Positions 35,937 to 54,730 of a DNA stretch of 64,000 nt are shown one piece after another; the first letter of the stretch is position 1; every line of letters begins with the position of its first letter. This DNA comes from Sphingobium sp. WTD-1 (GTDB lineage: Bacteria > Pseudomonadota > Alphaproteobacteria > Sphingomonadales > Sphingomonadaceae). The notes under the pieces are model-generated. The model searched no databases. It had not been told where the DNA came from and was given only the letters and a program-made list of their open reading frames with translations. A program made the position numbers and the translations under genes. Location of the stretch: contig NZ_CP119127.1 of assembly GCF_030128825.1 (NCBI RefSeq), positions 1,736,001-1,800,000 of the forward strand, read 5' to 3'.

Positions 35937-37189
<1,253 letters not shown>

Positions 37190-37211
37190 ATTTCGGTTCG
37201 CACTCGTGCCT

Positions 37212-37328
37212 CCCCTCCCTTCCAGGGAGGGGCCGGGGGTGGGTGCGAGCGTAGCGAGCCTCCTTCGGAGGCACCCACCCTTGAATAGAGACAGGTGTCT
37301 CTATTCAACCCTCCCTTCCAGGGAGGGG
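37212..37328. repeat. Structured repeat element between ligB and ligC
   Basis: Two copies of one hairpin flank the element: CCCCTCCCTTCCAGGGAGGG (37212-37231, extended by G at 37232) and CCCTCCCTTCCAGGGAGGGG (37309-37328). Between them a larger hairpin GGGTGGGTGC (37237-37246)/GCACCCACCC (37271-37280), then a separate AT-richer palindrome at 37281-37308. GC-rich multi-hairpin repeats of this kind are typical between genes of sphingomonads; here one lies inside a catabolic operon and would shape its mRNA. Confidence 0.7.
37281..37308. repeat. 28-bp near-perfect palindrome within the ligB-ligC repeat
   Basis: TTGAATAGAGACA (37281-37293), GG, TGTCTCTATTCAA (37296-37308): arms of 13 bases match exactly. 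Its AT content and sequence differ from the surrounding G/C-tract repeat, as if it had been inserted into the repeat's tail. Confidence 0.75.
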
Positions 37329-37346
37329 CTTTAGATGGAGAATAGC

Positions 37347-38921: not shown

Positions 38922-41900
38922 TTATTGTTCCGCCGACAGCGTGACCGGCCCGATCAGGCCCGACGGACGCAGCGGCGCATCGGGGCGATAGGTGGGGGCG
39001 GCGGTGAAGCTGATCTTGTCCGCGCCGGGCTGCTGGTCGCCGATCAGGCGGTTGACCCACAGGTTCGCGACCTTCACCTCGATCGCGTTGCGGCCCGGCT
39101 TCACCAGCTTGCCGACGTCCAGCCGATAGGGGGCGAACCAGCTCGTGCCCGCGACCTGGCCATTGACCCGCACTTCCGCGACGTCACCGACGCTGCCTAG
39201 ATCAAGCCACAGCGGCGCACCGGGCCTGGCGCCCTTGGGCAGGGCAAAGCTGCTGGTATAGGTCGCCTCGCCCGAGAAATAGCGCACGCCCGGATCGCTG
39301 CTCTTGTCGAGCGCCGTCAGCGTCGGCATCGCAATCTCGGCCGGTGCGCCGCGCCCCGGCTGGAAGCGCACGGTCCAGGGCTGCGACAGGGTGGCGACCT
39401 GCTTCACCGCCGCCGGCGCGATCGTCCGGCTGGGGGCCTGCGCCGGCTTGCGGAACAGGATGAAGACGGCGTCCTCCGGCCCGACATCGAGCGGGATGAC
39501 CGTGTCGCTGCCTTCGGTCCGGTAGGACAGCGGCGCGGCGCTGCCGTCGATCGCGCGCCAGATTTCCGGCTGGCGGCCGGTGACGCGGAAGCGCGCTTCG
39601 ACATGCTCGGCCTGCGCCTTGCCATTGGTCACATAATAGAGGTCGCCATCGGGCAGGGCGCGGTGAAGGAAGCGATAGGCACCGGCATCGCCGCTGCCGG
39701 TCACGCGGAAATCGGCGCCGATGCCCGTGCCGGCGAGCGCGGCGTCGGCATCGGCGCTGGCGATCACCTTGCCCTTGCCGACCGGCTGGCCGCTCCACAG
39801 TTTCGCCGCCAGCGCGCGGAAGGCGGCGGGATCATCCTGCAGGCCGGGCGCGCGTTCGGGCGCGGTGCCGATCAGGGTGGCGCCAGCCTCGACCAGCGCG
39901 GCGATGCGCTGCAGGGTGGCGAGCGTCATCACCTTGCTCGATCCGCCCAGATACAGCGCCTTGTAGCGCGCCCTGCCGGCGATCAGGTCGCCATCCTGCA
40001 CCGACGCCCTGGTCGCCAAAATCTCGGCATTGACGAAGTCATAGGCGTAGGATTTGGGCAGGTCGGTCGGCACGCCATGTTCGAACAGCGCGGTGATCGG
40101 CGCATCCTCGCCATAGAAATAGGCGATGTCGGCATGGTCGCGGCCCTGCTGCAACAGGAAGCCGGTGCGCGCCATATAGTCGACCCAGGGCTTGGCCATA
40201 TTGGCCCAGCTTTCGTGGCGGTTGAAATATTGGCCGAAGATCATGAGGCTGAGGCCCGGCACCTTGTCATCCACCGGCTGGTGGACGGAGGTGTGGACGA
40301 TCGGCCGGTTGACGCCGGACACGAATTCCAGGTCGATCACGCGCTTGAGGTCCGCCGGCGCAAAGGCCCAGGGGGCGAAGGCCGACGTCATGCTCTCGGC
40401 CGACACGATATTCTGGCCATAGATATGGGCGACCGACGCCGCGCCCTTCATGTCGCCGATCAGGGTCGGGCGCGGCGCGCTGCCGCGATTGAAGGTCCAC
40501 ATCGCCGCCATCGGCACGTCGGTATGCGCGCGCATGGCCAGGTCGTCGCCCAGCACCGGCCGGCCATTTTCCAGCGCCTCGCCATAGACGGTCAGGCCAT
40601 GCTCATGCGCGACCTTCGCCACCGTGCCATAATGGGCGTCGGCCAGCAGGTCGGCCAGCGTCTGGCGATAATCATGCAGGAAGGCGTCGCTGCGCGCGGC
40701 CGATCCCACGACTGCGCCGGTCAGGGTCGGCAGGAAGGGGACGGGATCATAGCCGCGCCGCGCCTTGAACTCTTCCACCATGCGCGGCGTCCAGTTGGAT
40801 GCGCCCACCTCGATACTGTCGGTCAGCAGCGCGCTGATGCCCTTCTTGCCGATCCAGTCGGCGCCGACCGCATCGCGATACATGGCGAGATAGGTTTCGA
40901 GATAGCGGCGCACGGCGGCCGCATCATATTTGTCGACCTCCAGCCCGGTGGCTTCGGGCGTGGCGGGATGGTTGGTCTTGCCGGTCAGCGACCAGCCCAT
41001 GCGAACGATGCGCCAGCGCGTGCCCCTGGGTGCGGTCCAGTCGAGCGTGCCGTCGGAGCGCAGCCGATCGGTCAGGTCGATCACCCTGGCCGGATCGATC
41101 GCCGGCGCATCGGTTGGACCCATGCTCAGACGGTTATAATCGGATGCGATGGCATAGCCGGCCTTCGCTTCAAACTGGTCGATCCGCGCCTCGGCCGACA
41201 GGCGCAGGTCGCCGATGCCCAGGGTCGGGCTGGATGGACGGCCGAACACGTCGATCATCACCGCGCCGGGCGCGCCATCGCCCAGCCCCGGCGACTTGGC
41301 GGCATCATTAGGCGACAGGACCAGGCGGAAACGCTGCGCCGTGACGGGCGCGAAGCTGGTGGTGGAGGCGACTTCGGTCAGCGAGAAGCGGCCGAGCGGC
41401 TGCCATCCCTGCGCCGTTTCCGCCTCGATCGTCGGCCGATAGGCAGGATCGCCGAAGGGCGGCCGGGCATGGGGCACGAACAGGCTGGCCGACCGCACCG
41501 TGACGGGCGTGCCATAATCGAGGATCAGCGTGCCGGGATGCGCTTCATCGCCCTTGGCCATCTGGGCGACGGTTTCCAGATCGCTATCGCCGAGCGCAGC
41601 GGCGCCCGCGATCGGCTGGCCATCGGCATCCAGGATGCGGGGTGTCGGCAGGGCGACCTCGGCAATCGGATAGGCCAGCACCCGTGCCTCGCCATAGGCG
41701 CGCGGCTGGTCCGGTATCTCCGCATCGCCCGCCAGCGGATCGCTGAACTTCGCGCTCTGGAACGCGCCGGTCACATTGGGCGGGGCGGGCAGGGCGCCCT
41801 TGAGCCGCTGGCCGCCCTCGACCTCGGTCTGCGCCCAGACCAGCTTCTTCATGGCGTCCTGTGGCTTGACCCAGGGGCCGCCGGTCTCGCTCCAGCCCGG

Positions 41901-42251
41901 CGACGCCGCGATGGCGAATTCCAGCCCCTTGGCATCGGCGGTCTGGACGGCGTGGCGGAACGCATCTTTCCAGCCATCGGTCATATAGACCAGCCGTTCC
42001 TTGACGATTTGCGGCGTCTGCAGATTGGCGTCGAAATTCTGCACGCCGCCAATGCCGATGCGCGCCAGCCAGTCGAGATCCTTGTCGATCCCGTCCTTGG
42101 TCACATTGCCGTTCAGCCAGTGCCACCACACCCGCGGCCGGGCCGACTGGGGCGGATTGTTGAAGCCGTCGGCCAGATCGTCGGCCTGGGCGGGCATGGC
42201 GAGAACAGTGCCGGCCAGCAGCATGGCGAGACGCAGGGAACGGAATGTCAT
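38922..42251 (-). CDS. GH106-family alpha-L-rhamnosidase, secreted
   Basis: 1109 residues from the ATG at 42251, chosen because GAGGAT is well spaced and a signal peptide follows (FRSLRLAMLLAGTVLAMPAQ then ADD). GH106 marks: PPQSARPRVWWHWLNGNVTK, GGVQNFDANLQTPQIVKERL, EFAIAASPGWSETGGPWVKP, and KKGISALLTDSIEVGASNWT with a carboxylate cluster. The C terminus has a beta-sandwich (LDLGSVGDVAEVRVNGQVAG, then SWFAPYRLDVGKLVKPGRNA) like those of known GH106 enzymes. Such enzymes cleave terminal rhamnose from flavonoid rhamnoglucosides or plant polysaccharides. It closes a minus-strand glycoside cluster with GH1 and a TonB receptor. Confidence 0.88.
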   Translation of the reverse strand: MTFRSLRLAMLLAGTVLAMPAQADDLADGFNNPPQSARPRVWWHWLNGNVTKDGIDKDLDWLARIGIGGVQNFDANLQTPQIVKERLVYMTDGWKDAFRHAVQTADAKGLEFAIAASPGWSETGGPWVKPQDAMKKLVWAQTEVEGGQRLKGALPAPPNVTGAFQSAKFSDPLAGDAEIPDQPRAYGEARVLAYPIAEVALPTPRILDADGQPIAGAAALGDSDLETVAQMAKGDEAHPGTLILDYGTPVTVRSASLFVPHARPPFGDPAYRPTIEAETAQGWQPLGRFSLTEVASTTSFAPVTAQRFRLVLSPNDAAKSPGLGDGAPGAVMIDVFGRPSSPTLGIGDLRLSAEARIDQFEAKAGYAIASDYNRLSMGPTDAPAIDPARVIDLTDRLRSDGTLDWTAPRGTRWRIVRMGWSLTGKTNHPATPEATGLEVDKYDAAAVRRYLETYLAMYRDAVGADWIGKKGISALLTDSIEVGASNWTPRMVEEFKARRGYDPVPFLPTLTGAVVGSAARSDAFLHDYRQTLADLLADAHYGTVAKVAHEHGLTVYGEALENGRPVLGDDLAMRAHTDVPMAAMWTFNRGSAPRPTLIGDMKGAASVAHIYGQNIVSAESMTSAFAPWAFAPADLKRVIDLEFVSGVNRPIVHTSVHQPVDDKVPGLSLMIFGQYFNRHESWANMAKPWVDYMARTGFLLQQGRDHADIAYFYGEDAPITALFEHGVPTDLPKSYAYDFVNAEILATRASVQDGDLIAGRARYKALYLGGSSKVMTLATLQRIAALVEAGATLIGTAPERAPGLQDDPAAFRALAAKLWSGQPVGKGKVIASADADAALAGTGIGADFRVTGSGDAGAYRFLHRALPDGDLYYVTNGKAQAEHVEARFRVTGRQPEIWRAIDGSAAPLSYRTEGSDTVIPLDVGPEDAVFILFRKPAQAPSRTIAPAAVKQVATLSQPWTVRFQPGRGAPAEIAMPTLTALDKSSDPGVRYFSGEATYTSSFALPKGARPGAPLWLDLGSVGDVAEVRVNGQVAGTSWFAPYRLDVGKLVKPGRNAIEVKVANLWVNRLIGDQQPGADKISFTAAPTYRPDAPLRPSGLIGPVTLSAEQ

Positions 42252-42267
42252 CGGGGCGATCCTCATT

Positions 42268-42696
42268 TCAGATGATTGGGGCGGACGAGAGCATCCGCCG
42301 CAGCGCCACACTGGCGACCAGCGCACCGAGCACGCCGCCATAGGCAATCTTGATAGCCAGCGCGGCGCCCCAGCCGATCGGTCGCAGGCCATCGGTCGCG
42401 AGCGCAAGCAACCCGCCCAGCGCGGCACCGGCCAGCGCAAAGCCGGCGGCGCGCAGCAGGATCGGCCGCAAGGCGCCACCCACCCGTTTGCGCGCGATCA
42501 GCGCCGGAACAAGCGCGCTCATCAGTGCAACGGCAATGCTCTGCGGCACGAAATCGAGCGCCAGCCGATCCGGCGCTGCCCAGGCCAGCAGGCGCGGCTG
42601 GGTGCCGAACAGGGCGAGGAAAAAGGCCAGGCTCAACGCGCCATTGATGCCGACGCTGATCGCCGCCTCCCGCCGGATCGAGACGGCGCCGGTCAT
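42268..42696 (-). CDS. Small membrane protein of the glycoside cluster
   Basis: 142 residues from the ATG at 42696 (overlap of four bases with the alpha/beta hydrolase gene upstream). Four hydrophobic segments are visible: SVGINGALSLAFFLALFGTQ, SIAVALMSALVPALI, AAGFALAGAALGGLLALATD and IAYGGVLGALVASVAL. No transporter signature is present, so it is an inner-membrane protein of unknown role. It lies 16 bases before the GH106 start and is probably co-transcribed. Similar small proteins occur near sphingomonad glycosidase genes as far as I recall, without a known function. Confidence 0.7.
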   Translation of the reverse strand: MTGAVSIRREAAISVGINGALSLAFFLALFGTQPRLLAWAAPDRLALDFVPQSIAVALMSALVPALIARKRVGGALRPILLRAAGFALAGAALGGLLALATDGLRPIGWGAALAIKIAYGGVLGALVASVALRRMLSSAPII

Positions 42697-43598
42697 TGTC
42701 CCGCCTTTGGGGTCAGCAGGCCTCGCATGTCCATCCAACTCAGAAATTGCGGCAACAGGCCCATGGTCGTCGTGCCCGGCTTGCCCATGCCGAAACCATG
42801 GTCGCCGCGCTCATAGGCGTGGAGTTCGACCGGCACATGCGCCCGGCGCCAGCTTTCCACCAGCGCATAGGAGGGATTGGGGAACAGGCTGTCGTCATTG
42901 GCGATCGCCGCGAACATCGGTGGCGCGTCGGCGGGGACATTGCGCGCCAGCATCGGGCCATAGACATAGCCGATGAAGGACGGGCGATCCGCGCCCTTGC
43001 CCTCCAGCGTGGCGTTCATCACGGTCATGGCGCCGGCGGAAAAGCCGATCATGCCGACGCGCTGGGGATCGATGCCCCATTGGCCGGCGCTTGCCCGCAC
43101 CCGCTTCAGTGCGGCGAGTGCATCCAGCGTGGCGCGCGGTTCGCTGATCGTCGGCGGGACGTTGGGGTCGCTGAGCGATTCCGCCATGCGCTTGCCCATG
43201 TAGGCCGATGCCTTGGCCGTGTCGGCCGGGGTCTGGTTCAGCCGATATTTGAGGACGAAGGCGGCGACGCCATGATCGGCCAGCCAGCGCGCGACATTCC
43301 AGCCCTCATGATCCATCGCCAGCAGCATGAAGGCGCCGCCGGGCGCGACGATCACCGCCGCGCCGGTTGCCTCCGCCGGATCGGGCAGGACCGGGGTGAT
43401 GGTCGGCACGGTGACGTTGCGCACCGCCAGATCGTCGCCGAAGCGCACCCAATTCTCGGTCGTGCCCTTGGGCGCCTTGAGATCGGGATAGAGCGGGATG
43501 GCATTGGGTTCGGCCGGAGCCTGCGCCGGCACCGGCGTCGGTATCTGCGCGATGGCGGGCGAGGCCAGCAGCAGCGACAGCAGGACAAGGCGCTTCAT
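42693..43598 (-). CDS. Secreted alpha/beta-hydrolase (esterase)
   Basis: 301 residues from the ATG at 43598, with signal peptide KRLVLLSLLLASPAIAQ. Catalytic core: oxyanion strand AAVIVAPGGAFMLLAMDHEG, nucleophile elbow GMIGFSAGAMTVMNATLEG (Ser of GFSAG), acid and His in the C terminus (YERGDHGFGMGKPGTTTMGL). The family includes acetyl-xylan-type esterases and other dienelactone-like enzymes that deacylate plant glycosides. It sits between the GH1 gene (14 bases upstream) and the small membrane protein (4-base overlap), supporting a role in removing acyl groups from imported glycosides. Confidence 0.82.
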   Translation of the reverse strand: MKRLVLLSLLLASPAIAQIPTPVPAQAPAEPNAIPLYPDLKAPKGTTENWVRFGDDLAVRNVTVPTITPVLPDPAEATGAAVIVAPGGAFMLLAMDHEGWNVARWLADHGVAAFVLKYRLNQTPADTAKASAYMGKRMAESLSDPNVPPTISEPRATLDALAALKRVRASAGQWGIDPQRVGMIGFSAGAMTVMNATLEGKGADRPSFIGYVYGPMLARNVPADAPPMFAAIANDDSLFPNPSYALVESWRRAHVPVELHAYERGDHGFGMGKPGTTTMGLLPQFLSWMDMRGLLTPKAGQ

Positions 43599-43612
43599 GG
43601 CGATCTTCCCGG

Positions 43613-44917
43613 TCAGAGCGCGTTGCGGCGGGCGATCGCGCCATAGACGGCGGCGCTGGGTTTGGGCGTGCGGGCGAAGGTCACCGGATCGACGCTGTGC
43701 AGGCCGAATTTGGGCTTGTAGCCGAAGATCCACTCGAAATTGTCGAGCAGCGACCAGTGGCAATAGCCCAGCACCGGCACGCCATCGTCGATTGCGGCCT
43801 TTAGGCCTGCCAGCGCTTCGGGGATGAACTTCGCGCGGACCGCATCATCATCGCTGCCCACGCCATGTTCGGACACCAGGATCGGCACGCCGGTCGCCTC
43901 ATGGGCAAAGCGCACTGCGCCGCCGAGCGAGGGCGCCCAGACTTCGGTGCCGGACCAGTTGACGGCCGAACCCCTGGGCGCGGGCAGGCGGCCCTTGTCG
44001 CCCCACAGGGCGCGCTCATAATTCTGGACGCCGATGAAATCGTCGTCCTTCGCAATCTCCAGCCAGTTGCCGTAGAGCTGCTTGCGCATGGCATCGCGCA
44101 CCGAATGGGCGCCGACCGCCTGATCGTCCATCAGCGCCAGCGAGAAACCGACCGGCAGGTCGCCGCGGACTGCCTTGATCGCAGCCTTGCCCGCCTTGTG
44201 CGCGGCTTCCAGGCCGGTCTGGAGCGCGGGCAGATCGTCGAAGCCGGCGACATTGGCGCAGACATATTTGGGCACGCCCAACCGCTTGGCCGCGGTTTCC
44301 AGCGTCAGTTTCTGGATGTCCCACACCTGCGGCGGCAGCATGGGCTTCAGGAGCAGCAGGATATTGGGTTCGTTGAGGGTGATGGCGCTGTCGATGCCCT
44401 GACCCAGCGCGCGCATCGCCTTGTCGCAATAGCGGGCGAACAGTTGCGCGCTTTCCGGGTTGGTCCAGCCGCCCTGCGCGCTGAACCAGCGCGGCGCGGT
44501 GAAATGGCTGAAGGTGACGATGGGGGCCAGGCCGCGGGCATGGCAGCCGTCGATCACCGCCTTGTAATGATCGAGCATCGCCTGGGAGAAGAGGCCCTTT
44601 TCCGGCTCGATCCGTGCCCATTCGATGCCGAAGCGATAGGCGTTGAGGCCCATGGCCTTGACCAGGTCGAGGTCGGTTTCCCACAGGGCGAAGCTGTTGC
44701 AGGCGTCGCCCGAAGGCTGGGCGAAGACGGTCGGCTGCTGATTCTCCACGAACCACAGGTCGCTGGCGGTATTATTGCCCTCGACCTGATGCGGCGCAGT
44801 GGCCGCGCCCCAGTAGAAGCCCTTGGGGAAATTGGGGGTGGCGCTCTTGCGCGCGGCGATGGCAGGGGCGGCCATCAGCGCGGCGCCGGTAGCCAGAAGG
44901 GTGCGGCGATCCAGCAT
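43613..44917 (-). CDS. GH1 beta-glucosidase, exported
   Basis: 434 residues. N terminus MLDRRTLLATGAALMAAPAI is a Tat-like signal (DRRTLLATG). GH1 marks: FPKGFYWGAATAPHQVEGNN, YRFGIEWARIEPEKG, the acid/base Glu183 in ITLNEPN and the nucleophile Glu350 in LVSEHGVGSDD (EHG instead of the usual ENG), and YCHWSLLDNFEWIFGYKPKF. It would release glucose from beta-glucosides such as flavonoid glucosides after rhamnose removal. It lies between two esterase genes downstream of a TonB receptor gene in the same orientation. Confidence 0.9.
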   Translation of the reverse strand: MLDRRTLLATGAALMAAPAIAARKSATPNFPKGFYWGAATAPHQVEGNNTASDLWFVENQQPTVFAQPSGDACNSFALWETDLDLVKAMGLNAYRFGIEWARIEPEKGLFSQAMLDHYKAVIDGCHARGLAPIVTFSHFTAPRWFSAQGGWTNPESAQLFARYCDKAMRALGQGIDSAITLNEPNILLLLKPMLPPQVWDIQKLTLETAAKRLGVPKYVCANVAGFDDLPALQTGLEAAHKAGKAAIKAVRGDLPVGFSLALMDDQAVGAHSVRDAMRKQLYGNWLEIAKDDDFIGVQNYERALWGDKGRLPAPRGSAVNWSGTEVWAPSLGGAVRFAHEATGVPILVSEHGVGSDDDAVRAKFIPEALAGLKAAIDDGVPVLGYCHWSLLDNFEWIFGYKPKFGLHSVDPVTFARTPKPSAAVYGAIARRNAL

Positions 44918-44941
44918 GTTCCGTCTCTCCTATTATAATTG

Positions 44942-45790
44942 TCAGGCAGTGGTTTCGCGCACGAAGGCGCAGATTTCTTGCAACAGCCGCCGGTCGGCGG
45001 TGCCCAGATGCATGGCCATGGAATAATGATTATGGCCCGACTGGATGAAGGCGCGCGGCATGGCGCCATGGCGCGCCAGCCGGTCCTGCAACAGGCTCAG
45101 GAACTCGGCCTGGAAGCGGGGCGGGTCGAACTCGGCGCAGGCGATCAGCAGCGGCAGGTCGGTCGAAACAATGGCTTCCAGCGGCATGCGCTCCGGGTAG
45201 AGCGAAGCATCGCCATAATAGAACGTGTCGCGCGGATCGAGTGGGGTATAGCCATAGAGGCCCGACAGCAGCACGGCAGCGCGCACGGCGTCCGATCCGG
45301 CGAGTTTCAAATAGCCCGCAACATGGACGGCGCCGGCCGATGTGCCCATCAGGACCATGCGGTCGGGGTCACCGCCATGCTCGGCGGCATGATCCTTGAG
45401 CCAGTTGACGACGGCCGCGACATCTTCCGCCCCGGCGGGCCAGCCATGGTCGGGGGCAAGGCGATAATTGATGACGACGCCAAGGAAACCGGCCTCAGCC
45501 GCCATCCGGCCGACATTGGCATTGGGCCAGGCGTCGGCGCTGCCCTTGTCGCCTTTCAGGAAGCCGCCGCCATGGACGAAGACCAAAATGGGTGCGGGGG
45601 CATCGCCCTTGGGGGCATAGAGGTCGAGCCGGTGGCGGGCGTCCGGACCATAGGGGATGTCCGCCTGCGACACCGGGATCGCCGCCGCCAGCAGCGCCTG
45701 CTCGGCATCGAACAGCGCCCGGCACTGGCCGAGTATGTCCGGTCCCAGATCGGTGCCCAGTGCGGCGATGGCGTCCCTGATCGGCTTCAT
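44942..45790 (-). CDS. Alpha/beta-hydrolase (hormone-sensitive-lipase/carboxylesterase-like)
   Basis: 282 residues from the ATG at 45790; no signal peptide. Oxyanion motif HGGGFLKGDKGSADAWPN, nucleophile in MVLMGTSAGAVHVAGYLKLA (Ser in GTSAG), acidic residue in LLIACAEFDPP and a histidine in FIQSGHNHYSMAMHLGTAD. The family hydrolyses small esters; the related enzyme kynurenine formamidase has a similar pattern (SGHNHYS). Located between the TonB receptor and GH1 genes, so possibly acting on an acyl or lactone group of the imported substrate. Confidence 0.82.
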   Translation of the reverse strand: MKPIRDAIAALGTDLGPDILGQCRALFDAEQALLAAAIPVSQADIPYGPDARHRLDLYAPKGDAPAPILVFVHGGGFLKGDKGSADAWPNANVGRMAAEAGFLGVVINYRLAPDHGWPAGAEDVAAVVNWLKDHAAEHGGDPDRMVLMGTSAGAVHVAGYLKLAGSDAVRAAVLLSGLYGYTPLDPRDTFYYGDASLYPERMPLEAIVSTDLPLLIACAEFDPPRFQAEFLSLLQDRLARHGAMPRAFIQSGHNHYSMAMHLGTADRRLLQEICAFVRETTA

Positions 45791-45860
45791 ATGTCCCCTC
45801 TGGCCAGAAGGATTAGGAAAAAAGACGGGACGCCACCAGCGGCGCCCCGCCTCAGGAGGA

Positions 45861-48146
45861 TCAGAATTTCGCGTCCAGGCTGATGCCGATCTGGCGGAAG
45901 GACTGCGGCCCATAGATGGCGCCGATATTCTGCTCGCCCTGATCGGTGGTGTAGGGGAAGTCGCTCTGCATCAGCGAGGGCTCATGCACGTTGAACAGGT
46001 TGCGACCGAAGATCGCGACGCTGTAGCGATCGTCATCGGTGCGCAGGCCGATGCGGCCGCCGACCAGCCAGTGCGAACGGAAGGTGGTTTCGTCGTTCGA
46101 ATTGGCTTCGTAGCGCACCTTCGACTTCCACACCGTGTCCGCCGCCAGGAAGCCCTTCAGGCGGCTCGTCACCGGCGCTTCATATTCGCCCGACAAAGTG
46201 AACTTGTACTTGGGCGCATAGGCAAGCTGGCTGCCGCCGATATTGGTGCCATCGGTGCCGATGAAACCGCCCGGATAGGTCGCCTTGGCATAGATGAAGC
46301 CGGTGTTGAGCGACAGGCCGTCGAAGACCTTGCCGAAGAAGTTGATTTCCGCGCCGCGCGACTTCACGCCGTTGATGTTGGTCTGGACGCAGGAAATGAC
46401 CGCCGTGCTGTCCACCGTGCACTGCTGCGCCTGGAAATTCTTGATCTTGCTGTAGAAGACGTTGAGGTCCGCGACCCAGCCGCCGAACAGGGTGCTCTTG
46501 AGGCCCAGTTCATAGGCGGTCGGGATTTCCGGCTGCACGACGAAGGGCTTGGCCGGGGCCGAGGGGATGGCGATCTGCCCGCCCTTGAACCCGCGCGAGG
46601 CGGTCGCATAGACCATGGTGTCGTTGGCCAGGTCATATTGCGCGCCCAGTCGCCAGGAGAATTTCTGGACGTCCAGCACCGTGCGGCTGAACGGATCGGC
46701 CGGGGTGAAATAGTCGTAGCGGTCCATCGACAGGCGATCGGTGGTGTAGCGACCGCCGGCGATCAGCCGCAGTGCGGGCGACAGGTGGAAGGTGCCCTGG
46801 CCGAACACGGCCAGCGATTCATCCTGGATATCGATGTCGGCGCCGGGGTTGCGCACGATCGGGATGACGAGGCCGGGGAAGGGCACGACCGACACGGCCA
46901 GCGTTTCGGGATCGCGGGTCTGCTTCTGGTTCGAATAGAAGACGCCGGCGGTATATTCCAGGAACTGGTCGGCAGGCGAGCTGACCCGCAATTCCTGGGT
47001 GAAGAGGCTCAGGCGCCGGTTGGTCGGGCCGTTCGCGACCTGCAATTCCAGCGGATCGCCGCGGAACACGTTGCTCGCCGCGCCATAGCCGGTCTCGTTC
47101 GACTTGCGATAGGCGGTGATGGAGGTGAGGGTGAAGGGATCGGCCTCATAATCGACCTGCAGCGAACCGCCATAATTTTCGGTATGGCCGACATAGCTGT
47201 CGTCGCTGCAATAGTCGCGATTGCCCTCACCTGGCGTCACGCCGCAGCTGGCAAGCCGGGCGATGATGCCGGTGGTGTCGGCCAGCAGGCCGCCCAGCGC
47301 CGTGCCCGGACCGCTGGTCTTGACGAAGGTGAAGAAGTCGCCGCCATTCTCGATCCGGCTCTTGGTATAGTCGCCGATCACATTGACGGTCAGGCGATCG
47401 GTCGGCTCCCACAGGAGGCGGCCGCGAATGCCGTAGCGATCGGTGTCATTATAATCGCCGGTGCTGGCGTTGCGGTTAGGCCCCTGGCGGAAATTGGCGA
47501 CGCCCGACAGGCGGATCGCGGCATTGGGTGCCAGCGGGATGTTGACCATGCCCTGCACGATCTGGTTGCCGAACTTCGACCCCAGCGTGCCGGCGTCGGA
47601 CAGTTCGGTGCGGACGCGGGCGGCAAAGCCGGTCGGATCGGGCGCATTGGTGGTGATGTTGATGACGCCGGCCGAAGTGGTGAGGCCGAACAGCGTGCCC
47701 TGTGGTCCCTTGAGCACTTCGATCCGGCTGACGTCGAACAGATCGGAGATATTGGCGTTGCCCTGGCTCACCTGGTCGACGACCACGCCGACCGAGGCGA
47801 CGGCGCCGGCCGAGAAGGTCTGGGTGCCGATGCCACGGATCGACCCGCCGCCGCCGGTATTCTGACCCGGCGCCTGCTGGATCTCCAGGCTCGGCGCGAT
47901 GCGGTTGAGGTCGTTCATCGTGTTGACCTGCTGCCGCTCCAGCTGGGCGGCATTGGCCACGGTGATGGAGATCGGCACCTCGGTCACCTTCTCCGCCTTG
48001 CGCTGGGCGGTGACGATGATGTCGGAATTGTCCGCCGGCTGTGCCGCCTGTTCGGGCGCGGGCGCGTCCTGCGCGAAGGCCGGCGCGGTGATCGCGATGG
48101 CGCTCGCGCTGGCGAGGGCCGCAATGGTGATGTGGATGTTACGCAT
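45861..48146 (-). CDS. TonB-dependent receptor of the glycoside/aromatic locus
   Basis: 761 residues. Signal peptide (HITIAALASASAIAITAPAF then AQ), TonB box DIIVTAQRKAEKV, plug with NRIAPSLEIQQAPGQNTGGG and VSRIEVLKGPQGTLFGLTTS, then a barrel closing in QIGISLDAKF. The plug variant GTQTFSAGAVASVGVVVDQV is typical of the large sphingomonad/Caulobacter group taking up plant aromatic compounds and saccharides rather than siderophores. It separates the glycosidase half of the cluster from the ring-cleavage half, suggesting that it imports the glycoside or aglycone. Substrate not provable from sequence. Confidence 0.88.
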   Translation of the reverse strand: MRNIHITIAALASASAIAITAPAFAQDAPAPEQAAQPADNSDIIVTAQRKAEKVTEVPISITVANAAQLERQQVNTMNDLNRIAPSLEIQQAPGQNTGGGGSIRGIGTQTFSAGAVASVGVVVDQVSQGNANISDLFDVSRIEVLKGPQGTLFGLTTSAGVINITTNAPDPTGFAARVRTELSDAGTLGSKFGNQIVQGMVNIPLAPNAAIRLSGVANFRQGPNRNASTGDYNDTDRYGIRGRLLWEPTDRLTVNVIGDYTKSRIENGGDFFTFVKTSGPGTALGGLLADTTGIIARLASCGVTPGEGNRDYCSDDSYVGHTENYGGSLQVDYEADPFTLTSITAYRKSNETGYGAASNVFRGDPLELQVANGPTNRRLSLFTQELRVSSPADQFLEYTAGVFYSNQKQTRDPETLAVSVVPFPGLVIPIVRNPGADIDIQDESLAVFGQGTFHLSPALRLIAGGRYTTDRLSMDRYDYFTPADPFSRTVLDVQKFSWRLGAQYDLANDTMVYATASRGFKGGQIAIPSAPAKPFVVQPEIPTAYELGLKSTLFGGWVADLNVFYSKIKNFQAQQCTVDSTAVISCVQTNINGVKSRGAEINFFGKVFDGLSLNTGFIYAKATYPGGFIGTDGTNIGGSQLAYAPKYKFTLSGEYEAPVTSRLKGFLAADTVWKSKVRYEANSNDETTFRSHWLVGGRIGLRTDDDRYSVAIFGRNLFNVHEPSLMQSDFPYTTDQGEQNIGAIYGPQSFRQIGISLDAKF

Positions 48147-48181
48147 GGTCTGTCCTCCCCCGGTATGCGGGTTGATGATTG

Positions 48182-49012
48182 TTATTGTTCGTCGATGATG
48201 CGGTTGCTGAGCGTGCCGATGGTGCCGATGGTCACTTCGACCTTGTCGCCGGCCTTCATGTAGAGCGGCGGGGTGCGCTTATCGCCGACGCCGCCGGGCG
48301 TGCCGGTGGCGATCACGTCGCCGGGGCTCAAGGGCGTGAAGGCGGTGACATATTCGATGACCGTGGGAATATCCCAGATCATGTCGCTGACCGGCTGGTC
48401 CTGCACCAGTTCGCCATTGAGGCGGGTCTGGACGCGCAGCGCCTGCAGGTCTTCAATCTCATCGGGCGTCACCAGCGCCGGGCCGAAGCCGCCAGTGCCG
48501 GGAAAGGTCTTGCCCGGCGTGAACTGGATATTGTGGCGCTGCCAGTCGCGCGCGCTGCCATCGTTGAAGGCGGCATAGCCCGCGACATAGTCCCAGGCGT
48601 CGGCGGCCGCGACCTTGTGCGCGGGCTTGCCGATCACCAGCGCCAGTTCGCCTTCATAGTCGAAACGCTCGGTCACGGCCGGCTTCACCATCGGCTGGCC
48701 ATCGGCGATCAGGCTGTCGGCATAGCGCACGAAGATGGCGGGATGCGCCTTCTGCTCGCGGCCGGTTTCCTTGACATGCTCGGCATAGTTGAGGCCGACG
48801 CACAGGATCTTGGCGGGATCGGGGATCACCGGCAGCAGCACGACATCGGCGGCGGCATAGGATGCGCCATCGGCCAGGCCCGACAGGCTGCCGTCGGTCA
48901 GCGCGGCCTTGAGGCTCGGCGCCGCATCGGTCGCCAGCTCGACGATCGTCTCGCCCGCGATCCGGCCGAAGCTGGGGGTGCCGTCGGGACGGCGGAAACT
49001 GACATAGCGCAT
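48182..49012 (-). CDS. Fumarylacetoacetate hydrolase (FAH) family hydrolase
   Basis: 276 residues from the ATG at 49012, which overlaps the end of the dioxygenase gene. FAH core: KILCVGLNYAEHVKETG, PAIFVRYADSLIADGQPMVK, FDYEGELALVIGKPAHKVAA (metal-binding ExE), GYAAFNDGSARDWQRHNIQF and IATGTPGGVGDKRTPPLYMK. Family members hydrolyse or decarboxylate 2-hydroxy-6-oxo dienoates and acylpyruvates formed by extradiol cleavage. Its direct coupling to an extradiol dioxygenase implies hydrolysis of that enzyme's product. It resembles the hydrolases that follow extradiol enzymes in flavonoid A-ring degradation. Confidence 0.85.
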   Translation of the reverse strand: MRYVSFRRPDGTPSFGRIAGETIVELATDAAPSLKAALTDGSLSGLADGASYAAADVVLLPVIPDPAKILCVGLNYAEHVKETGREQKAHPAIFVRYADSLIADGQPMVKPAVTERFDYEGELALVIGKPAHKVAAADAWDYVAGYAAFNDGSARDWQRHNIQFTPGKTFPGTGGFGPALVTPDEIEDLQALRVQTRLNGELVQDQPVSDMIWDIPTVIEYVTAFTPLSPGDVIATGTPGGVGDKRTPPLYMKAGDKVEVTIGTIGTLSNRIIDEQ

Positions 49013-49920
49013 CAGGCTTGTTCCTCGTTGATCAGGTCTAGCGATTGGGCATCCCAGTCGCGGCGATGGCGGAATTTCTCTTCGGCGGCGCGCAGGCCGG
49101 CGAAATCCTTGTCGGACATGCCCCACTGGTCGATCCGGCCTTCGGGCCAGGTCCAGTCCTCCGGCGCGCCGGCCTGATAATCCTCGGCCACCTTTTCCAC
49201 GGCGGTCGAAAATTCGATGACGGGACCAAAGGGGGCGATGAAATAGGCGAAGACATTGGCACCCGGACCATGGCGGCCCGGCCCCCAGGCAGGCACCATG
49301 CCATGATCGCGCAACCGGCCTATGCCGCGCATCACCGCATCCATGTCCGCCATTTCGAAGGCGATATGATTGAGGCTGGAAAAGCCGGCGCGGGCGAAGG
49401 CGGTGGAATGGTGCGAGTCATTGCAGCGCACGAACACCATGCCCTTGGTCCGGTCCGACACGCGAAAGCCCAGCGCGTCCTCGACCAGATGGCCGGTCGC
49501 TTCCGCGTCGGCGCTGTTGAAGACGACATGGGTCAGCTTTACCGGCAGGTCGGCGCCCGCGATCGGCGCGACTTCCTCGGCGTCGACCAGGAAGCGCAGC
49601 AATTCGCCCTCGGCCAGTTCGACGATGATGCCATGGCCGCCGCCCGGATCGTCCGACACGGTCGGCGTCGCGGGCAGGCCGGCGGCGGTGACGCTGCGCT
49701 TCAGCTGCTCCAGCCGCTCGGCGGTGCAGACGAAGGTGGTGGAGCGGACATAGGCGTCGGCCGATTCCGCCAGCGCGACCAGATAGGGATAGCTGCCCGA
49801 CCCGCGCAGATAATGGGTCTCGCCTTCTCGCGCTGCCGGGGCCATGCCCCAGATGTCGGTCAGGAAGGCGGCAGCCTCACCCGCATGGGGCAGCGCCAGT
49901 TCGATGCTGCGCAGCTTCAT
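49012..49920 (-). CDS. Extradiol dioxygenase, two-domain VOC (type I) family
   Basis: 302 residues from the ATG at 49920. Two VOC domains; the C-terminal one holds the probable metal triad His131 (KLTHVVFNSADAE), His185 (SLNHIAFEMAD) and Glu236 (GPVIEFST), the spacing of BphC/catechol-2,3-dioxygenase-type enzymes. The C-terminal extension (DWTWPEGRIDQWGMSDKDFA) is unlike biphenyl enzymes. It would open a vicinal diol on an aromatic ring produced by the neighbouring flavoprotein hydroxylase. It overlaps the GlcG-like gene (4 bases) and FAH gene (1 base). The same three-enzyme set occurs in Herbaspirillum naringenin degradation (FdeE, FdeC and a hydrolase). Confidence 0.85.
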   Translation of the reverse strand: MKLRSIELALPHAGEAAAFLTDIWGMAPAAREGETHYLRGSGSYPYLVALAESADAYVRSTTFVCTAERLEQLKRSVTAAGLPATPTVSDDPGGGHGIIVELAEGELLRFLVDAEEVAPIAGADLPVKLTHVVFNSADAEATGHLVEDALGFRVSDRTKGMVFVRCNDSHHSTAFARAGFSSLNHIAFEMADMDAVMRGIGRLRDHGMVPAWGPGRHGPGANVFAYFIAPFGPVIEFSTAVEKVAEDYQAGAPEDWTWPEGRIDQWGMSDKDFAGLRAAEEKFRHRRDWDAQSLDLINEEQA

Positions 49921-50345
49921 TTTCTGTCTCCGTGGAAGAGGCCGGCGGCCGTGATGCCGGCGATGGCGCAGGCCTCGTCGCATTCGCCGGTGTCGCCGCT
50001 GATGCCGACCGCGCCGATCAGCGCGCCGTCTGCATCGCGGATCAGCACGCCGCCCGGCGAAAAGGCCATCTGGCCGGTGGCCGCCGCGATGCTCTGGAAA
50101 AAGACAGGGTTGGACGCGGCGCGGGTGGCCAGCACCCGCGTATCCGCGCCCATCCCCAGCGCACCGGCGGCTTTGGCCTTCGCGATGTCGAAACGGAACA
50201 GACTGGCGCCATCCTCGCGCGCGAAAGCGACCGGATGGGCACCGGCATCCAATATGATGACGGCCAGCGGCTGCGCGCCATCGGCGCGTGCCTTGGAAAG
50301 CGCGGCGTCAAGGATGACGCGGGCCTGGGCGAGCGATAGGGTCAT
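49917..50345 (-). CDS. GlcG/HbpS-like small protein
   Basis: 142 residues, single GlcG/HbpS (heme-degrading, DUF336) domain: LAVIILDAGAHPVAFAREDG, FDIAKAKAAGALGMGADTRV, SPGGVLIRDADGALIGAVGI and SGDTGECDEACAIAGITAAG. Proteins of this type bind heme or cobalamin-like ligands or act as small accessory factors; they are often found in glycolate and aromatic catabolic operons without a defined role. Overlaps the hydroxylase gene upstream and the dioxygenase gene downstream by four bases each, so it is part of the ring-cleavage unit. Confidence 0.82.
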   Translation of the reverse strand: MTLSLAQARVILDAALSKARADGAQPLAVIILDAGAHPVAFAREDGASLFRFDIAKAKAAGALGMGADTRVLATRAASNPVFFQSIAAATGQMAFSPGGVLIRDADGALIGAVGISGDTGECDEACAIAGITAAGLFHGDRK

Positions 50346-51850
50346 GCCGCGATCTCCTGCCGGGCGGTGCCGGCGATCAGCGCATCGCGCCGGGCGATGA
50401 GATCGGCGGGCTTGCCGGTGCCGAAAACATAATGGTCGGGGCGGACCAGCACGGCGTCGGCGCCGCGCGCGTCGAGCCAGTCGGCGACATGGCCGTCATC
50501 GCCCAGGTCCGCGACATCGATCACGGTCACGTCGCCGCCCGTAACCGGCTGGCGGGTGAACAGGCGCCAGCCATCGCCGGTCACGTCGTCCAGCAGCCGG
50601 TCGCCGACGCGCGGCTGGATGAAGCGCTCGCCCGCACCCTTTGTGCCGGTGGCGACGATGCCGGTGGCGATGGCGGGGATCAGGTCGGCGGCGGTGCCGC
50701 TCTGCGCGCCCTTGGCGGCTTCGCGCAGCTGATGGTCGCGCGCGGCCGCGGCGTCGGGATCGAGCACGCAGATATAGCGGCCCGCGCCCACGGCGGCGGA
50801 GATGACGGCGCGGACATGGGGATCGCGCTCTGGCTGATAGCTGTCGAGCAGCGTTTCGGGCGCCTTGCCCGCCAGCACCAGCTCCAGCTTCCAGGCCAGG
50901 TTCGCGGCATCGCGCAGGCCATGGCACATGCCCTGGCCGAAAAAGGGCGGCGTCTGGTGCGCGGCATCGCCGGCCAGGAAGACGCCGCCCTGCCGCCACC
51001 GCTCGGCGATCAGGCCATGGAAACGATAGGTGGCGGCGCGCACCACCTGGTGCGGCACGCCGTCGAGATAAGGGGCTACCAGCGCGGCCACGGCGTCTGG
51101 CTGCATCATCGCCTGGTCGTCTTCGCCGGGCAGCAGCATGAATTCCCAACGACGGTGATTGCCGCGCCCCGGCACGATGGTGGCCGGACGTTTGGGATCG
51201 CACATCATCACCGACAATTTCTGCAGGTCGGCCGCTTGCGGCACGCCCCACAGGTCGGGGAAGCGGATCGGGCCGTCTACCTCGGCATCAACCACCAGCC
51301 AGGGTTCCTCGAAATCCAGATCGTCGAGACCGATGTCGAGCGCCTTGCGCACCGCGCTGCGCGCGCCGTCGCAGGCGATGACATAGCGGGCACGCACCTG
51401 TTCCTCGCCGGCGTCCGACCGCAGCGTCAGCGTGACGCCGTCCTCGTCCTGCGCCAGCGCCTCGAACGCGGTGCCCAGCGACAGCTCGACATTGGGATAG
51501 ACGTCCAGCGCATCGCGCAGATGGTCTTCCAGTTCGGGCTGGTAGAAGAAATAGTCGTTGGACCAGCTATAGGGGCGGGGACGGCCGACCGTGCCCATGT
51601 AGCGGATCACGCCATGATCGGCGCCGACATGCAGATGCCCCTCGGTATCGCGCATGTCCGGGGCGACCCGGTCGATGACGCCGGCCGACTGGAACAGGCG
51701 CATCATCTCATGGTCCAGATGGACCGCGCGGGGCAGGGGATAGGGGTTGGCCTCACGCTCGATCACCAGGACCGAGACGCCGGTTTTCCCAAGTAAATTG
51801 GCCGCAAAGGCCCCCACCGGCCCGCAGCCGATGATCGCAACGTCGAACAT
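50342..51850 (-). CDS. MhpA/FdeE-like FAD-dependent aromatic hydroxylase
   Basis: 502 residues, class A flavoprotein monooxygenase. FAD motif VAIIGCGPVGAFAANLLGKT at residue 4, PRAVHLDHEMMRLFQSAGVI (substrate region as in 3-(3-hydroxyphenyl)propionate hydroxylase), DG motif VIACDGARSAVRKALDI, and GD motif GVFLAGDAAHQTPPFFGQGM followed by CHGLRDAANLAWKLELVLAG. C-terminal thioredoxin-like domain. Probable reaction: NAD(P)H-dependent ortho-hydroxylation of a phenol ring to a catechol for the adjacent extradiol dioxygenase. Naringenin-8-hydroxylase FdeE is of this type; MhpA-like phenylpropanoid hydroxylation is the alternative. Confidence 0.85.
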   Translation of the reverse strand: MFDVAIIGCGPVGAFAANLLGKTGVSVLVIEREANPYPLPRAVHLDHEMMRLFQSAGVIDRVAPDMRDTEGHLHVGADHGVIRYMGTVGRPRPYSWSNDYFFYQPELEDHLRDALDVYPNVELSLGTAFEALAQDEDGVTLTLRSDAGEEQVRARYVIACDGARSAVRKALDIGLDDLDFEEPWLVVDAEVDGPIRFPDLWGVPQAADLQKLSVMMCDPKRPATIVPGRGNHRRWEFMLLPGEDDQAMMQPDAVAALVAPYLDGVPHQVVRAATYRFHGLIAERWRQGGVFLAGDAAHQTPPFFGQGMCHGLRDAANLAWKLELVLAGKAPETLLDSYQPERDPHVRAVISAAVGAGRYICVLDPDAAAARDHQLREAAKGAQSGTAADLIPAIATGIVATGTKGAGERFIQPRVGDRLLDDVTGDGWRLFTRQPVTGGDVTVIDVADLGDDGHVADWLDARGADAVLVRPDHYVFGTGKPADLIARRDALIAGTARQEIAA

Positions 51851-51866
51851 GAAAGCGTCTTTCCGG

Positions 51867-53102
51867 TCAGACCGTCAGGGGCTCGGGCACGGGGGATTTA
51901 TGCATCCGCCCGCCTAGCATGATCATCTTGATATTGGCCGCATCCTGCAGCAAGCGGACGTCCTTCGTCGGATTACCCTCGACCAGCAGCAGGTCGGCGA
52001 GATAGCCAAGCTTCACCTGACCGACCGGCAGGTCCATCAACTCGCCGCCCAGCGTCGTGGCGGCATGCAGCGCCTCGGCCGGGGTGAAGCCATAATAGGT
52101 GACGAAATGCTCCAGGTCGCGGGCGTTGCGGCCATGGGGGTTGAAGGGGAAGCCATAGTCGCCGCCGGGCAGCACGCGCACGCCGCGCGCCTTCAATTTG
52201 GGCACCAATGTCTTTTCCAGTTCCAGCCGCTCGGCCGCGCTCGCCTTCATCGACGCCATATTGATATGGGGCGGCGGATTGGCCTCCAGCGCGGCGACGG
52301 AGACGCCGGGGCCGGGGGCGTAGAAGATGGCGTCCTTCTTTGCCGCCATGGCGTCGATCGCCGCGTCATCGGCAAAGGAGCAATGATAGAGGATGCGGGC
52401 ACCCGCTTCGAGCGCCAGATTGATGGCGCGGGGGCTATAGGCATGGGTGGCGATCCACAGGCCCGCCTCCTTTGCCGCTTCGCCGGCCGCGATCATTTCC
52501 GCGTCGGTGTAGAGTATGTCCTGCGACGATCCGGGCTTGAGCGCATCTTCGCCCGAAACCACCAGCTTCAGAGACTTGACGCCCTCCGCCGCGCAATAGG
52601 CGACGAAGGCGCGCATCGCTTCGGGCCCCCGCCCGTTGAACACATCGCCGGTTTCGACCCCTTCCTCGCCTTCCGGGCTGCGCTCCAGTGTGGAGGGCAC
52701 CAGCCGCGGGCCGGGCGTTTCGCCGGCGGCGATGGCGCGGGCCAGTTCCGGCTCGATCTGATCGCCCAGCGCGCCGGCCGAATAGAGGCTGGTATAGCCA
52801 TGGTCGAGCAGCACACGGGCATTGCGCCAGGCGGCGACCTTCAGCTCCTCGGGCGGCAGGATGAACTGATGATAGATTTTCTCGACCGAACTGCCCCAGG
52901 TCAGATGGGTATGGGCATCGACCATGCCGGGCATCAGCGTCGCGCCCTGGCCGTCGATCACCATGTCGGCCTGTGCCGCATCGATCGCGGCTTCGTCGCG
53001 CAGAATGTCGGCGATGCGATCGCCCTCGATCATGACCGCGCCGGGGAAGGGCGCACTGCCGGTCCCGTCGAAAATCGCAATATTGCGGATCAGCTGCCGC
53101 AC
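51867..53102 (-). CDS. Amidohydrolase-family protein (imidazolonepropionase-like)
   Basis: 411 residues with a GTG start at 53102; GGGAGAG lies just upstream. Amidohydrolase superfamily: metal HxH in PGMVDAHTHLTWGSS, VKSLKLVVSGEDALKPGSSQ (Lys of the bridge region), His in WIATHAYSPRAINLALEAGA and RILYHCSFADDAAI, Asp in VLPGGDYGFPFNPHGRNARD, and LGYLADLLLVEGNPTKDVRL. It may hydrolyse an amide, lactone or C-C bond of a pathway intermediate. It is the first gene of the operon after the LysR gene and 16 bases before the hydroxylase gene. Confidence 0.82.
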   Translation of the reverse strand: MRQLIRNIAIFDGTGSAPFPGAVMIEGDRIADILRDEAAIDAAQADMVIDGQGATLMPGMVDAHTHLTWGSSVEKIYHQFILPPEELKVAAWRNARVLLDHGYTSLYSAGALGDQIEPELARAIAAGETPGPRLVPSTLERSPEGEEGVETGDVFNGRGPEAMRAFVAYCAAEGVKSLKLVVSGEDALKPGSSQDILYTDAEMIAAGEAAKEAGLWIATHAYSPRAINLALEAGARILYHCSFADDAAIDAMAAKKDAIFYAPGPGVSVAALEANPPPHINMASMKASAAERLELEKTLVPKLKARGVRVLPGGDYGFPFNPHGRNARDLEHFVTYYGFTPAEALHAATTLGGELMDLPVGQVKLGYLADLLLVEGNPTKDVRLLQDAANIKMIMLGGRMHKSPVPEPLTV

Positions 53103-53182
53103 GAGGGCTCTCCCGAAGTCTCTTGTTGAATGCCCTTATGCGCCGAATTTATACGCAAGAATAATAATGATTTTTGGGAACG
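53103..53182 (-). promoter_or_regulatory. Promoter region of the amidohydrolase-to-rhamnosidase series
   Basis: The gap between the LysR gene and the amidohydrolase gene is AT-rich (AAGAATAATAATGATTTTTG). It holds a TGCG-N11-CGCA dyad at 53139-53157, the T-N11-A spacing favoured by LysR regulators. The LysR gene ends immediately upstream. Confidence 0.4.
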
Positions 53183-54079
53183 TCATAGCTTGGAGCTATG
53201 GATCATGATGTCCAGCAGCGCCTCGCCCAGCCGCGACAGGCGCGCATCCTTCAGCTTGCGGATGCCGATGCTGCGCTGGAAGGTCGCTTCGCGAATGGCG
53301 ATCGCGCGCAGCACGCCGATCGACAGTTCGGCCGCCGCCACCTTCATCGGCAGGATGGTCAGCCGGCTGCTGTTCCGCACCATGGCCTTGGTCGTCAGCA
53401 GGGAGTCGCACCGGATCACGTCCTGCGGCACCGGCACGCCCGCCGCCATGAACAGCGCGTCGATCTGCCGGCGGAAGGCGCCGCGCGCCTCCGGCAGCAC
53501 CCAGCGCCTGGCCATCATGTCGCGCAGCGACACCTCGGCCGGCAGATGGTCGTTGCGGCGCCCGACCACCAGCGCGAAGGGATCCTGCGCGAAGGTGATT
53601 TCCTCGATCCCCTCGGGCGGCTCCTCCAGCCCCGTGGTGACGAAGGCCAGCTCGATCTCGCCCCGGTGCAGCATGTCGGCCAGGTCATGGTCGGGCCGCT
53701 CCACCGCATGCAGCGCGAAATGGCCCATCTTGTCCTCCAGCCGGCGCACCGCGTCGGGCAGCAGGCTGACGAGGGCGCCCGGCGTGCCGCCGACGCGCAG
53801 CGGCCCGGTCACGCCCGCACGCGCCAGCCGCAATTCCTCCTCCGCGCCGCTGATCAGGCTGTCGACCGCCTCCGCCCGGCGCAGCAGCACCTCGCCCTCC
53901 GGCGTCAGGCTGATGCCGCTGCGCGACCGGGCGAACAAGGCCGCGCCGACCGACTGTTCCAGTTGCGCGATCGCATTGGACACCGATGGCTGGGAGATGT
54001 TGAGCAGCCGCGCGCCGCCGCTGATCGAATTGGCACGGCAGACGGCGAGGAAGGTGCGAAGCGCGCGGGGATCGATCAT
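53183..54079 (-). CDS. LysR-type regulator, probable controller of the downstream catabolic operon
   Basis: 298 residues from the ATG at 54079. Winged helix at 1-60 (DPRALRTFLAVCRANSISGG, ARLLNISQPSVSNAIAQLEQ) and co-inducer domain from about 90 (GPLRVGGTPGALVSLLPDAV). The same-strand position directly before the amidohydrolase/hydroxylase/dioxygenase operon is that of a pathway activator, comparable to FdeR of Herbaspirillum, which responds to flavonoids. Direct comparison with FdeR is needed. The protein lacks the second winged helix seen in the ligR-type gene at 32.7 kb. Confidence 0.85.
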   Translation of the reverse strand: MIDPRALRTFLAVCRANSISGGARLLNISQPSVSNAIAQLEQSVGAALFARSRSGISLTPEGEVLLRRAEAVDSLISGAEEELRLARAGVTGPLRVGGTPGALVSLLPDAVRRLEDKMGHFALHAVERPDHDLADMLHRGEIELAFVTTGLEEPPEGIEEITFAQDPFALVVGRRNDHLPAEVSLRDMMARRWVLPEARGAFRRQIDALFMAAGVPVPQDVIRCDSLLTTKAMVRNSSRLTILPMKVAAAELSIGVLRAIAIREATFQRSIGIRKLKDARLSRLGEALLDIMIHSSKL

Positions 54080-54121: not shown

Positions 54122-54730
54122 CTAGCGGTCGGTGCCGCTCGCCTCCCGCACCAGGGCGATCAGCGCGGCGGGACTGCTGGCGCCGGTCTTGGCGACGATC
54201 GCGGCGCGATGGTCCTCGATCGTCTTGGGACTCAGCGACAGGGCGGCGGCGACCATCTTGTTGCTCATCCCCTGGGCCAGGCAGTGCAGCACCTCGCGCT
54301 CGCGCGGGGTCAGCGGCGCCAGCCGGGCCAGCGCCCCGCGCCGCTGCCGGCTCCAGCGTGCGCCCTCGGCCACCGCCGTCAGCAGCCGCCCCTCGTCGAT
54401 CGGCTTTTCCAGATAGTCGAGCCCGCCATAGCGGCGCACCGAATCCACCGCGCTGCTGGTGGTCGGCCAGGCGGTCATGAAGATGATCGCCACCGCCGGA
54501 TCCTGCGCCCGCATCCGCTCGGCAAAGGCAAAGCCGTCCATGTCCGCCATCATCACGTCGGTGACCAGGCAATGGGCTGGCTCGTCGGCTTGCGCTGCCA
54601 GCATGGCCTTGGGCGTGTCGAACGCCTGGGTGCGATAGCCGTGCCGGCCCAGCAGCCGCGCCACTGCCCGGCCCAGATCAGGATCGTCATCGACCACATG
54701 GATGATGGCGGGATCGGCCGGGTCAGTCAT
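54122..54730 (-). CDS. FixJ/NarL-type response regulator
   Basis: 202 residues. Receiver domain 1-120 with the phosphoacceptor Asp in LVTDVMMADMDGFAFA, Asp pair in IIHVVDDDPDLGRAVARLLG, Thr in IIFMTAWPTTSSAVDSVRRY and Lys in LDYLEKPIDEGRLL. A LuxR-type HTH follows at about 140-200 (LTPREREVLHCLAQGMSNKM, VAAALSLSPKTIEDHRAAIV). It overlaps the histidine kinase gene upstream by 8 bases, a standard two-component pair. Targets unknown; flagellin and the catabolic locus are the neighbours. Confidence 0.88.
   Translation of the reverse strand: MTDPADPAIIHVVDDDPDLGRAVARLLGRHGYRTQAFDTPKAMLAAQADEPAHCLVTDVMMADMDGFAFAERMRAQDPAVAIIFMTAWPTTSSAVDSVRRYGGLDYLEKPIDEGRLLTAVAEGARWSRQRRGALARLAPLTPREREVLHCLAQGMSNKMVAAALSLSPKTIEDHRAAIVAKTGASSPAALIALVREASGTDR

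Follow-up and report, generated by a model that had tools for sequence, protein, structure and literature searches.

The genetic basis of flavonoid breakdown in bacteria is known in few cases, such as the fde and ifc gene sets (PMC8552027, PMC11069340). The fde operon of Herbaspirillum seropedicae SmR1, which is directed at the A-ring of naringenin, encodes a LysR regulator, a class A flavin adenine dinucleotide (FAD) hydroxylase followed by a VOC dioxygenase, and an FAH-type hydrolase. FdeG is the cyclase of this operon. FdeD is its Rieske partner (PMC8552027), and the Variovorax ifc cluster, which acts on isoflavones, follows a shared logic of FAD hydroxylase, VOC enzyme and alpha/beta hydrolase (PMC11069340). 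Here we describe a cluster in Sphingobium sp. WTD-1, in a stretch of 64,000 nucleotides that we refer to as the window (assembly GCF_030128825.1, contig NZ_CP119127.1, positions 1,736,001 to 1,800,000 of the forward strand). Twelve minus-strand genes make up one run at window positions 38922-54079, with a LysR gene first and a GH106 gene last. The cluster shares with fde the LysR regulator, the hydroxylase, the VOC dioxygenase and the FAH hydrolase, but also encodes an amidohydrolase, an HbpS-like protein, a TonB receptor and glycosidases, which fde does not. We give an even chance to the proposal that it serves the use of plant-polyphenol rhamnoglucosides, most likely those of flavonoids, through periplasmic deglycosylation followed by cytoplasmic ring opening.

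Under this proposal, a TonB-dependent outer-membrane receptor (45861-48146; PF00593 and PF07715) would import the glycoside. In the periplasm, a GH106 alpha-L-rhamnosidase with a leader peptide (38922-42251; PF17132, 1010.5 bits) would take off rhamnose, a GH1 glycosidase with a twin-arginine-type leader (43613-44917; PF00232) would take off glucose, and a secreted-looking alpha/beta hydrolase with a hydrophobic leader (42693-43598; Abhydrolase_3/DLH, PF07859 and PF01738) would remove acyl groups. The aglycone would then pass to a cytoplasmic core consisting of an amidohydrolase (51867-53102; Amidohydro_1, PF01979), a 502-residue class A FAD hydroxylase of the MhpA subfamily (50342-51850; NF004829, 493.5 bits against a cut-off of 390), an HbpS/GlcG-like protein (49917-50345; PF03928), a two-domain VOC extradiol-type dioxygenase (49012-49920; PF00903 in the C-terminal half), an FAH-family hydrolase (48182-49012; PF01557) and an alpha/beta hydrolase of the BD-FAE type (44942-45790; PF20434). 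The hydroxylase most likely acts on the A ring, a ring of the resorcinol or phloroglucinol type that has probably been freed as a one-ring fragment by fission of the C ring, and would add a hydroxyl group to it; the VOC enzyme would then open the ring and the FAH enzyme would hydrolyse the product. We only infer the substrate, the localisation, the order of steps and the roles of the amidohydrolase and the HbpS-like protein. The two other genes of the run encode a LysR-type regulator in the same orientation as the enzymes (53183-54079; Pfam HTH_1 and LysR_substrate), whose top NCBIfam model is TF_pcaQ at 132 bits, under the cut-off of 303.8, and a small membrane protein of 142 residues from an unnamed family without a Pfam match (42268-42696). 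The initial annotation had set out this gene series, and every gene that it named was found in place and on the expected strand, with the correction that the two esterases, taken to be neighbours, are separated by the GH1 gene. The junctions comprise gaps of 80, 16, 35, 70, 24, 14 and 16 bases and four small overlaps of 4, 4, 1 and 4 bases, the coordinates being those of the most likely starts of open reading frames called by simple scripts.

The proposed compartments follow from the N-termini, which are leader-like in GH106, GH1, the second alpha/beta hydrolase and the TonB receptor. The arginine-pair leader of GH1 is present in all 65 orthologous open reading frames, 57 of which have a clear hydrophobic stretch, while the BD-FAE hydrolase, the FAH hydrolase, the VOC dioxygenase, the HbpS-like protein and the amidohydrolase show no leader by the same simple measure; the hydrophobic N-terminus of the hydroxylase is part of its FAD fold. 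This pattern suggests a periplasmic removal of the sugars and a cytoplasmic processing of the ring. GH1 has its two catalytic Glu motifs in place (TLNEP and SEHG), and GH106, the only member of its family found in this genome, keeps the acidic residues of the LLTDSIE and AES motifs, which align with those of an enzyme from Novosphingobium sp. PP1Y (55% identity). The nearest solved structures are L-arginine carboxypeptidase Cc2672, prolidases and ochratoxinase for the amidohydrolase; FAH-family proteins, HpaG/HpcE and the acylpyruvase FAHD1 for the FAH hydrolase; and 4zrs, a feruloyl esterase, for the BD-FAE hydrolase. Against NCBIfam models of the catechol 2,3-dioxygenase type, every score of the VOC dioxygenase lay under the cut-off.

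The cluster is conserved. When one genome per species was scanned, 141 relatives of the hydroxylase gene were found, of which the best 80 were kept (L006-L085); 12 of these loci are shorter than 20 kb and were left out of the counts below, which cover the remaining 68. The core recurs as amidohydrolase (59 loci), HbpS-like protein (62), FAH hydrolase (67) and BD-FAE hydrolase (63), and it is accompanied by LysR in 59 loci, GH1 in 58, the secreted hydrolase in 30, the small membrane protein in 38 and GH106 in at least 41, the GH106 counts being lower bounds because each locus extends only about 10 kb from the hydroxylase. The TonB receptor, counted in 57 loci at a loose 20% threshold, falls into two sequence clusters (31 and 28 loci) and has been exchanged between loci. 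The core also occurs in Caulobacter, in Alteromonadaceae and, in reduced form, in Marinomonas. Such recurrence over many genera means that the gene set is not a chance grouping. It is very improbable that two unrelated modules, glycosidases for a rhamnose polysaccharide and a core for some monoaromatic compound, merely share a promoter region: such a split would agree with the 10 of 68 loci in which the core stands without GH1 and GH106, and with the arabinofuranosidase-type genes upstream in RAC03, but in the other 58, spread over several families, the core is kept with GH1 or GH106, in many cases within a single closely spaced run. Co-occurrence with the glycosidases also assigns the two esterases, the BD-FAE hydrolase belonging to the aromatic core (it is retained in 7 of the 10 glycosidase-free loci) and the secreted hydrolase to the sugar module (all 30 loci that have it also have GH1 or GH106). 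Two further paralogues of the hydroxylase, at 45-46% identity, were seen in a related genome (G014, C28:205287-206705 and 223848-225329).

The rhamnoglucoside proposal draws on a relative of the cluster on plasmid Mpl of Novosphingobium sp. PP1Y (L086), whose products are 55% (GH106), 56% (LysR), 74% (amidohydrolase), 66% (hydroxylase), 71% (HbpS), 77% (VOC), 63% (FAH), 59% (BD-FAE) and 72% (GH1) identical to those of the window; it differs in carrying extra genes for rhamnose-isomerase-like, aldolase/short-chain dehydrogenase (SDR) and metallo-hydrolase proteins and a diverged LigAB pair. The PP1Y GH106 gene, at the sole GH106 place on the plasmid (the plasmid only was searched), encodes 1146 residues with Asp503, Glu506 and Glu644. 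As these residue numbers are reported for the rhamnosidase RHA-P, the enzyme is probably RHA-P. The PP1Y GH106 enzyme is reported to act on flavonoid glycosides (PMC10653915), and the PP1Y rhamnosidase is described as active on flavonoids of 1,2 as well as 1,6 linkage (PMC4693232). Genes resembling those of rhamnose catabolism adjoin 8-9 of the 68 loci.

A second line of evidence comes from variant clusters in Sphingomonas and Croceibacterium, which we term type II to set them apart from type I, marked by the amidohydrolase. Both types have the hydroxylase (in type II an orthologue 65-71% identical to that of the window), FAH, BD-FAE, GH1, GH106 and LysR genes, whereas type II has a quercetinase-like bicupin and a VOC enzyme of another subfamily (39-44%) in place of the amidohydrolase and the type I VOC enzyme. 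The bicupin occurs in 6 of the 68 loci, in L036 and on a Croceibacterium plasmid (L091), where it is annotated as a member of the quercetin 2,3-dioxygenase family; its best matches among solved structures are the quercetinases YxaG, QueD and that of Aspergillus, and it is probably a quercetinase. Amidohydrolase and bicupin never occur together (59 loci have the amidohydrolase, 6 the bicupin and 3 neither of them); the exclusion is exaggerated by its Fisher probability, 7.7e-07, as all seven type II hydroxylases in the tree belong to a single clade (86/82) that may go back to one event. In trees of 29 loci chosen from the 80, plus the plasmid and reference rows, type I and type II hydroxylases fall in one clade, so that the hydroxylase substrate is probably common to both. 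The swap raises the possibility, which we rate as unlikely, that the metal-dependent type I amidohydrolase, with the HbpS-like protein, is a hydrolytic, oxygen-independent stand-in for quercetinase-like opening of the C ring.

Three loci (L080, L087 and L088) have FdeE-family genes close to the core, and genes of the RPE65 family, which includes stilbene-cleaving types, lie beside it in L036 (S. glacialis, 3521-5044, accompanied by an aldehyde dehydrogenase gene) and L040 (Marinomonas, 7204-8697). Taken together, the probable RHA-P, the bicupins, and the FdeE-family, RPE65-family and rhamnose genes speak for plant polyphenols that contain a ring of the resorcinol or phloroglucinol type. A flavonoid rhamnoglucoside as the substrate, as the initial annotation had put forward, thus gains indirect but independent support from the probable RHA-P of the PP1Y cluster, the type II bicupins and the adjoining rhamnose-catabolism-like genes. 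Several points weigh against it. The assignment of RHA-P relies on its reported residue numbers, and saponins, too, are substrates of GH106 enzymes (PMC10653915). The metal site of the bicupin has Asp where YxaG has Glu (HxHx4E...H) in all seven sequences. A search of the WTD-1 genome, run without a positive control, found no quercetinase-like bicupin, which leaves the C-ring step here without a named enzyme, although the genome has five pirin-family genes. Nor was a match to the PP1Y rhamnose-isomerase-like protein found, again without a positive control, and a search for the DAPG hydrolase family, in which the control was silent, gave no lead.

The RPE65-family genes of L036 and L040 suggest a stilbenoid branch that shares the same ring pathway. 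They bear on whether the substrate might instead be a phenolic glycoside other than that of a flavonoid, for example one of a stilbenoid, a dihydrochalcone or a coumarin, or an acylated phenylpropanoid or phenylethanoid rhamnoglucoside. These genes, with the aldehyde dehydrogenase of L036, would fit such a substrate, as would the BD-FAE-type esterase with its nearest structure 4zrs and a hydroxylase of the MhpA subfamily, but RPE65 genes accompany only 2 of the 80 loci as against 7 of 80 plus L091 for bicupins, RPE65 and phenylpropanoid genes are absent from the window run, and the RHA-P-type rhamnosidase is reported to act on flavonoid glycosides (PMC10653915); we accord this alternative a low probability. 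A literature search on resveratrol and phloroglucinol routes yielded no lead.

Within the proposed flavonoid route, relatives of the hydroxylase favour a one-ring substrate for this enzyme. On plasmids of Falsirhodobacter (57% identity) and Rhizobium (40%), the hydroxylase gene lies beside genes for VOC and FAH enzymes, for decarboxylase-like amidohydrolases and for TRAP transporters; the stretches viewed contained no glycosidase. TRAP systems are importers of small acids. The neighbouring amidohydrolases are related to ACMSD (best E values 7e-57 for Rhizobium and 2.4e-48 for Massilia) and more remotely to resorcylate decarboxylase, the Falsirhodobacter protein being 53-61% identical to those of Rhizobium and Massilia. 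TRAP contexts free of glycosidases make it more likely that the hydroxylase acts on a small phenol or phenolic acid.

The initial annotation had further equated the hydroxylase and the VOC dioxygenase with FdeE and FdeC, a mapping that found no support. A search with the hydroxylase of a second module on a Massilia plasmid, encoded beside a Rieske gene, gave 7450 proteins above threshold among 8000 scored, and among the 120 matches listed two are named 'naringenin degradation protein FdeE' by the Joint Genome Institute (JGI), both of 374 residues. With these two automatically annotated proteins as the reference, rather than the H. seropedicae sequences themselves, the window hydroxylase was ruled out as an FdeE orthologue, being 23.7-23.8% identical to them and apart from a separate FdeE branch (100/100, with a long-branch warning). 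It scores above the cut-off of the MhpA-subfamily model, but its identity to E. coli MhpA is just 31%. The VOC dioxygenase is on a separate branch from the one encoded beside the Massilia FdeE-family gene, the only one compared (36.5% over 126 residues), and Pfam revealed no Rieske or cyclase protein among the twelve genes. The same Massilia putida plasmid (L088:10498-23221) carries a window-type core, with a hydroxylase of 44% identity, beside the FdeE-family module with Rieske, HisD, SDR and FAH genes.

Judged by its genes, a second locus in the WTD-1 genome, 0.84 Mb away (L099:5390-14279; G000:C1 ~937.4-946.3 kb), is a better counterpart of fde and ifc than the window cluster, as it encodes an FdeE-like hydroxylase (39% identity to P0073), a VOC enzyme, an alpha/beta hydrolase, a cyclase, an FAH enzyme, a LysR regulator and a TonB receptor. 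Variovorax IfcA accepts isoflavone aglycones specifically, and it is this second locus, not the window cluster, that holds the ifc-like set. It also encodes a relative of the small membrane protein (7187-7654; 37% identity), a family common to both flavonoid-type loci that may be an inner-membrane transport aid. FdeE-like relatives were present in 16 of 61 related genomes, and within the genus the two loci show no statistical coupling (both in 10 of 37, the hydroxylase alone in 11, the FdeE-like gene alone in 6; Fisher p 0.74), although about 16 kb separates them in G001. We doubt that the window cluster acts in the manner of Fde, with the A ring of an intact flavonoid hydroxylated and then opened by the VOC enzyme while the C ring is whole, by enzymes unrelated in detail to FdeE and FdeC. 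The reaction types would match those of fde and ifc (PMC11069340), and the window cluster has no recognisable C-ring-opening enzyme, but the hydroxylase, 24% identical to the FdeE-named proteins, belongs to another clade, in type II clusters this hydroxylase is accompanied by a quercetinase-like bicupin, the TRAP-transporter contexts of its relatives suggest a one-ring acid, and a locus like fde and ifc is already present in the genome.

Plus-strand genes at 30001-38288 form a protocatechuate 4,5-cleavage set (LigA equivalog TIGR02792, 196.4 bits against a cut-off of 108.6) with PrpF, RraA-like and Amidohydro_2 neighbours. The initial annotation had them receive protocatechuate from ring B of the flavonoid. 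The hydroxylase is present in 21 of the 61 related genomes, and LigB in 20 of these 21, but the two lie within about 14 kb of each other in only 4 of the 21 (G000, G016, G018 and G029), whose hydroxylases are 97-100% identical; in the other 16 of the 20 they are 51 and 475 kb apart on the same contig (two genomes) or on separate contigs (14, some of them fragmented drafts). The closeness is strain-level, and we reject it as a conserved feature. Protocatechuate from a flavonoid B ring could feed the lig pathway. In a distant Sphingomonas metagenome-assembled genome (L067), lig genes adjoin the cluster in an independent adjacency. Upstream of the run, in the same orientation and 42 bases off, lie genes for a MASE1 histidine kinase and a LuxR-type response regulator (54122-56333), which, among the loci viewed, are both kept only in the closest one, L006.

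In summary, the idea of flavonoid-glycoside use has been strengthened by evidence beyond that of the initial annotation, whose assignment of the enzymes and argument from the lig genes were not borne out. A literature search, with most subscription papers outside its reach, found no description of this cluster, which joins import, deglycosylation and ring cleavage and occurs in sphingomonads, Caulobacter and marine gammaproteobacteria. It supplies specific enzymes on which ideas about the fate of the A ring can be tested, and the swap of amidohydrolase for bicupin gives a specific, testable hypothesis on the opening of the C ring. If that hypothesis were true, the amidohydrolase would open flavonoids as the first enzyme of its class, and its products would enter an aerobic route for the phloroglucinol-type A ring that is so far undescribed.

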